Shown in pieces: positions 1 through 6,100 of a DNA stretch of 64,000 bases. The DNA is taken from positions 1 to 64,000 of the forward strand of contig JAIWNF010000009.1 of NCBI GenBank assembly GCA_025093555.1, written 5' to 3'. How positions within the stretch are numbered: the first letter of the stretch is position 1; each line of letters opens with the position of its first letter. A model generated the notes under the pieces. It worked only from the letters and a program-made list of their open reading frames with translations, made no database searches and had not been told where the DNA came from. Source of the stretch: Circinella umbellata (Eukaryota > Mucoromycota > Mucoromycetes > Mucorales > Lichtheimiaceae). The translations under genes and the position numbers were made by a program.

Positions 1-1712
1 TTGATCCAGGTACATTATTTTTTACTATACGTACATATAAAGTTTTTAATCAAAATGTGGCTAAACTAATTTATTTCATACTTAAATTATTGTAGGCATC
101 CGTGCCATGTTTACTGCTGTAGGAAACTACAATAACCATCAGGAAGATCTGGGAAATAAAAACTGGCGGACACATAACATCAAGACTGTTAGTAACGGTG
201 AATATCAGTAAGTAATAATACTTTTTTGTTACTATGGTATACAAATTAACAAACAATCAATTGATAATTTATATTTTATTTAGGCTACGTTCAGGTTTTA
301 GACGTGCTGCAAACCAAGAATTGATTGAACGTAACAATGCAAATATTCAACCTAGCTATGATGTCCTTACACAAAACCCTCCCACTGTTCCAAGTTCCCA
401 AGGTTATTTAAATTATATTAGTGCCCTTGGAAGAGTGCATAGAAAGTAAGTTATTACGCGATTAATATAAAAATTAAATGTGGGCAAAAAGAGCTTTGCC
501 TATTATAAATACATCTAACATGATTATATCCAAGTATCCACACTTTCAATATTGGTTTTAGACATAGAGAACGTAGAGAACGAAGTGCTGCAAGTCGTAA
601 GTGTGCACTTGACGTTTTGGCAAATTACGTCGCTGGTGGAATAATAAAGGTATTTACAACACATTTCAATTATATTATACATATCACTATATATATAACT
701 TTTATATAAATTATACTAATGTATGCTCATCGCTTTATATTCTTAGCCTGACATCCAGTCAACTTTAAAAAAATCCAAAGCAGAACGTAAAGCAGAAAGA
801 CGTCTTCAAGTGCGTACTATACGTGAAAGTTTAAACCAGTTACAAGGGGCTCACATACAGCCACCGCCAAGAGACCAAAGATTGGTGATTGCTTATGGTG
901 ATGCTGACCTCCGGGGTACAATGAAGGGTAGTGGCCCTTTACCAACAAAAGTACGTAATGCATGGTTAGGAAAGAGAGAATGAGCATATTAGATACTCAT
1001 TCTTATTGCCAAATTTTCTAAACATTTGTTTTTTTAGACATTCAGAAGGTATCTTGCTCAACGTGCTCCGGTAATATGTGTGGATGAGTACAACACAAGC
1101 AAAATATGCTCAGGTTGCCATCAACGCCTGTTCGATATAAGAAGAAATGATATGTCGATTTGTAACCATCGGTGAGTTTTTTGATAATTTTTCTACATAC
1201 ATCTATTCACCATTATTAAATATAAATGCAACTGTCATGTAGTACAACTGTCACCCATGATCGTTGGGTAAGAGATTCTGATGGACGCACTCGACATCGC
1301 AGACGCCGCTACTGCAATTTACCAGATGGAACGAGAATTAGAACATCTCAGTGTGAAGCAAGAGTACAATTAGGTAAGTTTCATATACAATCCAATAAAG
1401 TGATTTATTAATGTCCTTTTCAAAATTTACACAGGTGATGAAGACTATCGCCGTTTGATCTATCCTATAAAGATTTGCCAAAATTGTTTGTCGGTTAGAA
1501 ATACTCCTGCTTTGGTATATACGTCTTTCTTTAATGGTCATACTTTATTTATTTTTAAATGCTAAATATGATCATTTTCTCTATATTTTTTTCTGTAGCA
1601 CTTGGATCGTGATGTTAATGCTGCCTGTAATATGCGCCAAATTCTCCTAAATTATTTAAATAATTTACCAAGACCTCCAGCTTTAGATCGAGGACACCTT
1701 GTTGTCCAATAG
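1..1712 (+). CDS. Fanzor-type RNA-guided nuclease, C-terminal RuvC half (5' end outside window)
   Basis: Visible exons: 1-9, 96-207, 284-445, 562-649, 747-950, 1038-1171, 1243-1373, 1435-1514 and 1599-1712. Joined, they give an open frame of 343 residues. It begins at the RuvC-I motif DPGIRAMFTAV, whose Gly codon is split by the first intron. Numbering from that Asp as 1, the frame has GDADLRGTMKGSGPLP (about 171-186), the second catalytic acid in VDEYNTSKICSGC (Glu208), a zinc-ribbon pair CSGC (215-218) and CQNC (294-297), and the RuvC-III motif LDRDVNAACNM (Asp311). This is the eukaryotic relative of TnpB and Cas12, with the rearranged Glu position known for Fanzors. The family cuts DNA guided by an omega RNA usually encoded at the 3' end of the gene. 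No stop or frameshift is seen, so the visible half may be active. The N-terminal guide-binding half is missing only because the window starts here. Family assignment is strong; activity is inference. Confidence 0.88.
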
Positions 1713-1775
1713 CCAGTCAAACACTGGTAATGCGCCCTTTGTTGGCCACGGCGGTACGTTATTTTTTATTTGTAG
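1713..1775 (+). ncRNA. Candidate omega-RNA 3' segment or element end
   Basis: Directly after the Fanzor stop lies a perfect small hairpin: CCAGT (1713-1717), loop CAAAC, ACTGG (1723-1727). A GC-rich patch follows with TTGGCCA and CGGCGG (about 1742-1757), unusual for this AT-rich DNA. In known Fanzor and TnpB loci the guide-RNA scaffold overlaps the ORF 3' end and runs into the element's right end. That makes this the expected place, but the boundaries and the guide cannot be defined here. It could equally be an ordinary 3' UTR hairpin. Confidence 0.3.
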
Positions 1776-1801
1776 TTCTCATGTCACATTATATGATTTG
1801 C

Positions 1802-1816
1802 TGACGTCATTATTGG
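1802..1816 (+). promoter_or_regulatory. CRE palindrome and inverted CCAAT box upstream of the TMEM14 gene
   Basis: The perfect 8-base CRE palindrome TGACGTCA (1802-1809) is followed by ATTGG (1812-1816), a CCAAT box on the opposite strand. Both lie about 100 bases upstream of the TMEM14-like start codon. CRE sites bind ATF/CREB-type bZIP factors and CCAAT boxes bind the HAP complex in fungi. Function here is inferred from position and sequence only. Confidence 0.4.
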
Positions 1817-1911
1817 TGATAAATATAGAGAGCCCGTAAAAACGCATATAATTACAAAAGCTGTTTCGTCTTTTATTGTTCATACAACAACAACAGTAGC
1901 ACGTAGAAAAA

Positions 1912-2333
1912 ATGTCCCATCATCCTTGTTATACAATGGCCGGTCTTTCCCTTGCTGGGTAAGTAACTGCTTCTTATCCATGTGTATGAAAGCAAAAAAA
2001 AGAGGATATCATCTGATAAATTAATTTTCTTTTATTGTTGTTATTTTAATTATCATTTATAGTGGTGTTGCTGGTTTCGCTCGAACACGCTCTGTTCCCT
2101 CCTTAGTTGCTGGTGTAGCTGTTGGTTCTATGTATGGCTATGCAGGTTATTTGATCAAGGAAAACAAAGATTATGGACATGAGACTGCCGTTGTTGCTTC
2201 TGCCATCTTGGCTGGTGCCATGATCCCACGCGCCATCAAAAGCGGATTCAAGAAACCTGTACCAGTGGCAATGTCAGTGGTAGCCTTAGCAGCTGGGGGT
2301 TACTATGTTAAAAAAGTGATTGATTACATGTAA
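1912..2333 (+). CDS. TMEM14-family small membrane protein
   Basis: Two exons (1912-1958 and 2063-2333) encode 105 residues. The protein is four short hydrophobic, Gly/Ala/Val-rich segments, including GGVAGFARTRSVPSLVAGVA and VASAILAGAMIPRAI, and ends in KKVIDYM. Length and pattern fit the TMEM14 (UPF0136) family of roughly 100-120-residue membrane proteins. Animal TMEM14C sits in the inner mitochondrial membrane and supports haem synthesis; that role in this fungus is inference. The start ATG lies about 200 bases after the Fanzor stop, so the promoter must lie in the Fanzor 3' flank, where a CRE and a CCAAT box are seen. Confidence 0.85.
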
Positions 2334-3106: not shown

Positions 3107-6100
3107 ATGAAAAAGGGTGTACTTTTGGTGGCTTTGTATCCGTCGATCACTTGGGCACTTCAGGGTGTCTTTTTATGGCCTGTTCCACAGACAGTAGAAT
3201 CTGGAAATATTGATGTCAATTTAGATGTGTGTTAATTTTTTTTATATAATATTGTATCAAAATAACTACAGCTTTTATAAGTATTAATAGTATGGTATAT
3301 TACTTATATATAGAAAGCCTTCAAAATAAATGCGCCAAAAGAATTAGATGATGCTGTGTCACGTTATTCACAATTGATTGCGCGTGAACAGTGGGTGCCG
3401 GTACGACCATCATTTTTTAGTCTCTTTTTCTTTATTATTATTAAGCCATATATGCAATATCATGTCATTTTTTTCTACTTCTTTTGTTGAAAAATTCGAA
3501 TGTCTTTTGTTTGTGTATCGGTATAGGTACAGGTTCCTGATCCATACAAGGATGGTGAAGCATATGTTAATGGTCAGCGTAAGGCTGTAGTTGCGGGATC
3601 TACTCTCAAATCTTTAGAAGTGGTGGTCAATGAACCAACAAAGAACCTCGAATTTGGTGTGGATGAATCATATGTATTGAATGTGGATGGCACCCGGGGA
3701 AAGGCAACATTACAAGCTCCTACGATATGGGGTGCTCTTCATGGCCTTGAAACATTTTCCCAACTTGTACAAGCACGTTCTTCTGATGATAATACACCAA
3801 TTCAAGATTATAATGATGAAGATGAAGTCAAAAACAATGAAAATACTGATTTGTTTATTCCTGAAACTCCTATTCATATTCAAGATGCTCCTGCATTTTC
3901 TCATCGTGGATTAATGTTGGGTAAGTCAGAATATGCTTGAATTTTGGCTCTTGGAAATAAAATCATTTATTTTGATTGCTTTCTGACAAAAAGTTGTCAA
4001 TTAATAGATACTTCAAGAAACTATTTCCCTGTAAAAGATATTTTAAGAACCCTCGACGCTATGGCTTACAACAAACTAAATGTAACTTATTATACAATGC
4101 AAAAGGACTGCACGTGTCCTTGTGTTTCCACGTTTTGACTTTTAATATTAATTTTGCTCATCAATTTATATATTAAATCCAGGTCTTCCATTGGCATATT
4201 ACTGATTCACAAAGTTTTCCATTAAAGCTGGAAAATTCACCTGAACTTGCAAATCATGGTGCTTATGTTATCAACAAAAAACGTTATGTATATACAAAAA
4301 ATGATATCCAAAATATTGTCCAATATGCAAGGGCGAGAGGCATTCGTGTTATTCCAGAAATTGACATGGTAAGGAAAATTAAGGGGTTACTTATGGTTAA
4401 ATTGGCTGTATATAAATATAATATTTGGGTATGCAGAAATTAACATACAGACATATTCTAAAACCTACTACTCTATGTCTGAATTGTACATAATTATTAG
4501 CCTGCACATACTGCTTCTTGGGGATTGGCTCATAAGGACATCACGTATGTATTATATTAAAGGGAAAAAAAATCAGAATCGAAATAAGCTGGGGTGGAAG
4601 TATGGAAATTATTAGATAAGAATACTGATCAATACACAACAACATTGATACATGTAGAACATGTTCGGGACGATTCTTTTTAGATCAAAGTAATAAATGG
4701 AGTGAACGATATGCGGCCGAACCTACTACTGGTCAATTAAATCCAGTGGCAAATAAAACATATGAAATCGTCAACAAGGTGATTACTGAGGTCGCTACTT
4801 TATTCCCAGATGCATGGTTTCATGGTGGTGGTGATGAACCAATTTATAAGTGTTGGGAAGAAGAAGAATCAGTGCGGGACTATATGCAAGAGCATGGTGC
4901 CACTGGGGATGATCTCTTGCATATGTTCTTGAATAAAGAGCTTGAATTTATTCAAAATAACAAGAAAACTGCTATTTTGTGGGAAGGTAGCAACAAATTT
5001 AATTCCAAGTCATATGTTATGAATATATAAGTATAAAATTCAAATACACATGTAGAAGCTCACTAGTAATCTTTTTACGTATCGAATTTTTTCTGGGGAA
5101 TTTGTTACGTACCAAAAAAAAAATAGATTCTGTTACCAATAACAAGTTACCCATTTCCAAGAACGTGGTGTTGCAAGTTTGGGCAAACGCAGTGACTGAA
5201 GCAGCAAAGAAGGGTTATAAAGTGATTGCTTCACATGCTAACTTTTGGTATTTAGATTGTGGTCATGGTGGATGGACGTAAGTTCAACATGATGGCGCAC
5301 TTATGTTTGTGGCCCATGCTTATGTGTATATGCACCTGTGCAAAACATGTTTCCATATTTCCACAAATGTGCAGTTACAAGAAAAAAAGAATATTGAAGA
5401 ACATTATTATTAAATATTTTATAGAGGCAATGATATGTCATATGATGAACAAACACAACCCAAGATCCCAGAATCACTTGCCAAAGAATTGAATAAGCAC
5501 CAACTTACAGATAATTACCGCCCTTCTAATTGGGGAGGTTCTGGTGGTGATTGGTGTGGTCCTTTCAAGACTTGGCAACGAATTTACACTTATGATATGA
5601 CTTATAATTTGACAACCGCAGAAGCCAAGAATGTATTGGGTGGTGAAGTAGCTTTATGGGCTGAACAAACTGATAGTGTTAGTCTTGATGGTCGTTTGTG
5701 GTAAGTAATCCCCTTTTAAGCTTTTTTTTCACCAACTATATACACAATAGCAGATAAACAATAAAATTAACGTTTGTGTATATTTTTTTCTATCCTCCTT
5801 TTTTGATGCGTCGTCATGAAAACCATGATAAAAAATACTCTTTCATTCTTCACTGTTCTGCATAATTAAAAAAACTAATTATTCTATTAGGCCACGCACA
5901 GCAGCCGCGGCTGAAATCATGTGGTCGGGTCGTCAAGATAAAGACCAAAAACAGCGTGACCTAAGCGACGCCATGTTACGAATTTTCGACTGGAGATATA
6001 GATTAGTCAAGCGAGGCATTGGCGCTGAAGCACTTCAGCCGCTTTGGTGGTACGTTGACTTTTCTTTGTTATTTTCTTTTCAATTTCTTATTGTATATAA

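Follow-up and report, generated by a model that had tools for sequence, protein, structure and literature searches.

The 64,000-base stretch of DNA analyzed here (the window) very probably opens with a Fanzor gene, most likely a Fanzor1, that belongs to a low-copy mobile element of Circinella umbellata and of which the contig end leaves only the catalytic C-terminal half. The contig (C200) is 952,497 bases long and belongs to a genome of 50.8 Mb. Window base 1 is the contig start, and the gene enters from beyond it. This new copy adds to the Fanzors already known and is ordinary for this fungal group.

The part of the gene within the window lies on the forward strand at positions 3 to 1712 and consists of nine exons separated by eight introns of 61 to 116 nt, all with GT-AG boundaries. 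Joining the exons gives 1,032 coding bases, which encode 343 stop-free residues followed by the stop codon TAG at 1710 to 1712. Exon 1, as far as it is visible (3 to 9), is cut by the contig start and begins with the RuvC1 motif DPG, which is encoded by bases 3 to 9 and 96 to 97 and has its catalytic Asp codon at 3 to 5. Exons 2 (96 to 207), 3 (284 to 445), 4 (562 to 649), and 5 (747 to 950), the last of which contains VIAYGDADLRGT, agree with both the joined frame and a database record. Exon 6 (1038 to 1171) carries the alternative catalytic Glu of DEYNTSK (1086 to 1088) and the first CxxC pair, CSGC (1107 to 1118). The long stretch separating the two CxxC pairs is encoded mostly by exon 7 (1243 to 1373), the second pair, CQNC (1476 to 1487), lies in exon 8 (1435 to 1514), and exon 9 (1599 to 1712) contains LDRD, with the third catalytic Asp at 1611 to 1613, and the stop codon. 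The description in the first-pass annotation of a Fanzor gene with eight introns, all visible catalytic residues, and both CxxC pairs intact is thus borne out.

The database record is a C. umbellata entry, “hypothetical protein BDC45DRAFT_532106, partial,” which is identical at 340 residues to window residues 4 to 343. This third-party gene prediction agrees with exons 2 to 9, leaving out only the seven exon 1 bases that are visible. Because the prediction contains the same 340 residues and because relatives exist, the gene is well beyond what chance would produce, and its visible 343 residues are real and undamaged. The record also places the DNA in the Mucorales, the group that had been guessed from the letters. 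A protein search in which the best 7,989 candidates were scored returned relatives from Circinella minor, Fennellomyces, and Rhizopus microsporus. The C. minor protein (P0001) is 75 to 97% identical over four stretches, and the Fennellomyces protein (P0002) is 41% identical. Both gene models are incomplete, the former lacking DPG and the zinc part and being fused to DUF6729 and the latter stopping after the first CxxC. In the R. microsporus protein (P0003), Asn replaces the first catalytic Asp (QNPG), so this protein is probably inactive or different. A search seeded with P0003 (best 7,994 candidates scored) gave 20 proteins, including P0003 itself, from R. microsporus, R. azygosporus, and Helicostylum. 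Our literature search, of limited coverage, returned no paper pairing Fanzor with Circinella or with Mucoromycota and two pairing it with Mucor.

The window protein fits the pattern D-X(125,275)-[TS][TS]xx-C4-X(5,50)-RD that is given for Fanzor/TnpB proteins in the available text of PMC3627910, with spacings of 209 and 12. According to the accessible part of PMC10711439, Fanzors are recognized by DPG in RuvC1 and by a catalytic Glu (Ealt) that precedes the zinc finger by six residues, whereas the canonical TnpB glutamate lies about 50 residues before it. The arrangement E-YNTSKI-C in exon 6 places a Glu six residues ahead of the first zinc cysteine, in agreement with the Ealt rule, and residues 151 to 207, the stretch for the canonical glutamate, contain no Glu as read from the sequence. 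These observations confirm that the RuvC glutamate is rearranged, as had been proposed.

Profile searches, which the first-pass annotation had suggested as a check on the Fanzor placement, supported it in part. A profile built from 16 database proteins (including the window's own record) matched the Fanzor of Spizellomyces punctatus, SpuFz1 (PDB 8gkh; E = 0.00076), a proven RNA-guided nuclease (PMC10432273, PMC11423790, as far as these texts were available). The likeness lies in an aligned stretch with the TDG-type and DP motifs, and DEYKTS.xC was also aligned, weakly (2.7 bits); the next match of the same profile was a cytochrome (E = 0.0058). PF07282 (TNB) scored 23.2 bits with the window protein and 25.3 bits with an 827-residue model from a sister copy, both below the cut-off of 26.3 (E-values of 1.7e-5 to 7.8e-5), and the relative P0019 likewise fell short at 25.6 bits. 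The curated cut-off of this family is a convention, which we did not treat as defining Fanzor. Four other sequence searches of the PDB did not find a Fanzor, the window protein had no match in NCBIfam, and the structure models were poor (mean pLDDT of 50 and 36).

Size and the WED motif bear on the choice of subtype. Fanzor1 proteins are about 600 to 800 residues long (PMC10711439 and PMC11423790, in the parts available). The sister copy L034, with 827 residues, has this large size, and the window copy itself is cut. The WED motif reads TNG rather than TDG in all three full-length copies, on which this reading rests, as the WED region is missing from the window copy; the C. minor relative has TDG. 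TDG is described as characteristic of Fanzor1 but not as defining it (PMC10711439, available text). Being one residue off, TNG slightly lowers confidence in the Fanzor1 label. On the strength of the motif fit and the 8gkh match, and in view of the PF07282 score below the cut-off and of TNG, we use the label Fanzor with confidence and consider Fanzor1 the most likely subtype.

Three further copies of the gene are present in the genome, which over window positions 1 to 1834 are 99.5% (C209, plus strand), 99.5% (C209, minus strand), and 98.4% (C204) identical to the window copy. The C209 plus-strand copy (L034; C209:76578-80604) encodes a complete protein of 827 residues in 19 exons separated by 18 GT-AG introns. 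The visible exon 1 of the window corresponds to the last seven bases of its exon 11. Since the window gene is cut by the first base of the contig, comparison with this sister copy indicates that the window holds the C-terminal 343 residues of an 827-residue protein. In a genome search, the N-terminal half was whole only in the three sister copies and fragmentary on C189 and C112; that of the window copy did not turn up on another contig. An intact nuclease therefore cannot be claimed for the window copy, whose N-terminal half is absent from the assembly. The first-pass annotation had named a missing N-terminal half as grounds for giving up its reading. What we found is a weaker form of this, missing data rather than a proven loss.

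The state of the sister copies bears on whether any member of the family is functional. Two of the three are broken: a 1-base deletion disrupts exon 13 of the C209 minus-strand copy (L035), and in the C204 copy (L036) an in-frame stop is accompanied by 1-base deletions in both exon 13 and exon 15, by one GC donor, and by GPG in place of DPG, which changes the first catalytic Asp to Gly. Two diverged remnants were also found, on C112 and C189. It is a substantial possibility, short of an even chance, that the window copy is dead, perhaps a 5′-truncated relic, and that the family is decaying, with no copy making a working nuclease; the Fanzor label would be compatible with this. The broken copies, one of them altered in the first catalytic Asp, and the two remnants argue for it, as do the different 5′ limits of the copies and an excess of nonsynonymous over synonymous codon changes between copies (7:5 and 20:14). 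The undamaged 343 residues of the window and the integrity of L034 over all 827 residues argue against it, as does the comparison of the window with L034, in which 2 of 1,032 coding positions and 7 of 802 noncoding positions have changed (Fisher P = 0.047, uncorrected). Within the window stretch, L034 and L035 gave equal counts (P = 0.047, uncorrected), and the remaining four copy pairs were not significant (P = 0.087, 0.23, 0.83, and 0.83). Over the whole gene, L034 and L035 differ at 12 of 2,483 coding and 15 of 1,541 intron positions (P = 0.074), and L034 and L036 differ at 36 of 2,482 coding and 33 of 1,536 intron positions (P = 0.105). With so few copies the tests have little power, their P values are uncorrected for the number of tests, and the signs of purifying selection that they suggest are weak.

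The Fanzor family could have been active recently, given that the C209 plus-strand copy is intact throughout. The first-pass interpretation is upheld in part: its Fanzor identity, mucoralean host, rearranged glutamate, and intron richness are supported, whereas an active RNA-guided nuclease stays a suggestion, with half of the window copy absent and two of the three full-length sisters broken. The intact copy beside broken ones should be useful for testing which fungal Fanzors still work.

The copies also define one end of the element. All four are alike up to window base 1834 and then diverge into unrelated flanks, and the old relic on C112 stops there to within a few bases. The 3′ noncoding end of the element (1713 to 1834) has three full-length matches elsewhere, at 99 to 100% identity, and window positions 1820 to 2060 matched only themselves in a genome search. 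A unique right flank (1835 to 1911) separates the element from a TMEM14-like gene at 1912 to 2333 (PF03647, tested on 2025 to 2333), which is followed from about 3108 onward by a beta-hexosaminidase-like gene (PF14845, tested on 3527 to 3940). All four copies retain introns, which indicates that they were copied as DNA and not through spliced RNA. The many introns (19 exons in L034) and the distance of 77 bp from the TMEM14-like gene are features that a domesticated host gene might have. Domestication is nevertheless hardly credible, because four near-identical copies exist amid differing flanks and their common 3′ end is matched exactly or almost exactly by an old relic with yet another flank.

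Both C209 copies sit within a large inverted duplication (C209:56373-64175 versus 71316-80727), whose arms are 98.6 to 99.1% identical in two long stretches and also carry part of a ubiquitin-conjugating-enzyme gene (PF00179). The outer limits of this duplication coincide with the right ends of the element to within one base. This arrangement speaks for an origin of the copies by segmental duplication, with the common right end being a coincidence. We regard this explanation as very unlikely, as the C204 and C200 copies have the identical right end without being part of the duplication, the C112 relic stops only a few bases away from that end, and the compared copies share no flank beyond 1834. 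A mobile element with a fixed right end remains our preferred reading.

The 5′ limits, in contrast to the right end, differ among the three sister copies and the C112 relic, and that of the window copy lies beyond the contig start. The C204 copy starts at the position equivalent to L034:2181, and the C112 relic reaches an intermediate point. No terminal inverted repeats (TIRs) corresponding to the right end were found in the stretches retrieved, which were up to 10 kb long, and no target duplication was accepted at the 5′ limits of the C204 copy, the two C209 arms, or the C112 relic. Three of these four limits had no common word of 5 or more bases, and the 5- to 6-base matches at C112 were judged to be due to chance, as they lie 44 to 62 bases from the breakpoint. 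Six C209 open frames, chosen from a longer list, were compared with Pfam, and none matched a transposase domain. Fanzor1 genes are carried by eukaryotic mobile elements other than IS607; for the Circinella gene, the common right end at independent sites points toward such an element, and the negative searches for TIRs, target duplications, and a transposase domain point the other way. Two candidate left ends were rejected. Near L034:2181, 26 short genome matches start in addition to the family's own copies (best 40 of 65 candidates scored), but similar matches reach further left in L034; L034:1200 is not a limit for the C112 relic or the other C209 arm, both of which extend beyond it. Two repeats occupy the 5′ region of L034. 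One, of about 400 bases (near 1517 to 1919), is 85 to 90% identical to at least 38 other places (among the best 40 of 363 candidates), is absent from the C112 relic, and looks like a nested insertion. The other (1933 to 2265) is 71 to 75% identical to at least 37 other places (among the best 40 of 63 candidates).

This organization resembles that of MCi-2, a Fanzor1 family of Mucor circinelloides that is likewise from the Mucorales and has a constant 3′ part containing the Fanzor gene, varying 5′ regions, and no recognizable TIRs (Bao and Jurka 2013, PMC3627910, in the portion available). MCi-2 has 11 copies, a constant part of 6 kb, and, in two subfamilies, target site duplications (TSDs) of 11 to 12 bp with the pattern ATAATTNNNN(N) (PMC3627910), whereas the Circinella element has four copies plus remnants, 4.5 kb common to three linked copies, and no TSD that we could find. 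In combining a constant 3′ end with differing 5′ limits, the Circinella element shows again what is unexplained in MCi-2 and provides a second case for the study of Fanzor element movement. Helitrons end in CTRR, and the right end of the Circinella element, judged by its end motif alone, differs from them in lacking this sequence. CRe-2 and CRe-3 of Chlamydomonas are likewise intron-containing Fanzor1 genes with retained 3′ ends and frequent 5′ truncation; they have Helitron2 ends, TSDs on many copies, and ten exons, the largest number among the Fanzor genes named in the available text of PMC3627910. With 19 exons in its sister copy, the gene described here adds an unusually intron-rich Fanzor from the Lichtheimiaceae.

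We take the SPu-1 protein of S. punctatus to be the same as, or close to, SpuFz1. It has 633 residues in one open reading frame, within an element with 33-bp TIRs (PMC3627910, available text), as opposed to the 827 residues and 19 exons of L034. PDB sequence searches with the Circinella Fanzor found no match to PpFz1 of Parasitella parasitica. Parasitella belongs to the Mucorales, and membership in the same fungal group is what PpFz1 and the Circinella Fanzor have in common. PpFz1 is a Fanzor1 that cuts DNA in vitro and has a RuvC insertion of about 100 residues that binds cyclophilin (PMC11423790, in the part available).

By analogy with characterized Fanzors, the window Fanzor may have nuclease activity, a guide RNA, and a role in mobility. 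The protein would bind an RNA transcribed from its element's own 3′ end, the guide part of this RNA would come from the flank beyond base 1834 (in the window copy, a natural guide would be read from 1835 to 1911), and the protein would then cut DNA matching that flank. If the analogy with bacterial TnpB holds, such cutting would favor keeping the element at such sites. Tentative candidates for scaffold hairpins of a guide RNA lie on the plus strand near 1712 to 1728 and 1775 to 1833. The candidate region did not fold better than shuffled sequence: over 211 nt, 68 of 200 shuffles equaled it, and over 135 nt, 104 of 200 did so. The last 60 nt were slightly better, their fold being reached by 33 of 500. 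No Rfam family reached its gathering score in the window, and positions 1500 to 2000 gave no match up to E = 1. An improbable further idea is that the element spreads by 3′-anchored copying, with the fixed 3′ end doubling as the guide boundary and Fanzor cutting belonging to the copying process instead of being a passenger. The last base would then be constant in each copy and the 5′ end free to vary, and each copy would gain a new flank and, with it, a new guide.

The genome contains other Fanzor-like genes. A second Fanzor lies on the minus strand of the same contig about 107 kb beyond the window (L037:3092-4940, equivalent to C200:171091-172939). It contains WAAIDPGVRT, EERRTSVTCSSC, CRECG, and FDRDLN, scores 50.7 bits with PF07282, and appears by its motifs to be Fanzor2-like. 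Its relative on C156 (L038) reads FDRYLN, indicating loss of the last catalytic Asp. A profile comparison of the window family with the RuvC exon of the Fanzor2-like gene gave no match, and one with its zinc exon matched 21 columns. Another Fanzor1-like gene, on C150 (L040), has stop codons in its aligned stretches, in which introns and damage were not told apart. A different Fanzor1-like family, found on C134 (L039:3261-5753) and C138 (L041), has long exons, DPG, STDG, and a shortened zinc part. Finally, a tandem-repeat open frame (L042:9207-9629) has a 26-residue Pfam match, barely above the cut-off, to a toxin receptor domain, which within repeats looks like a chance resemblance.
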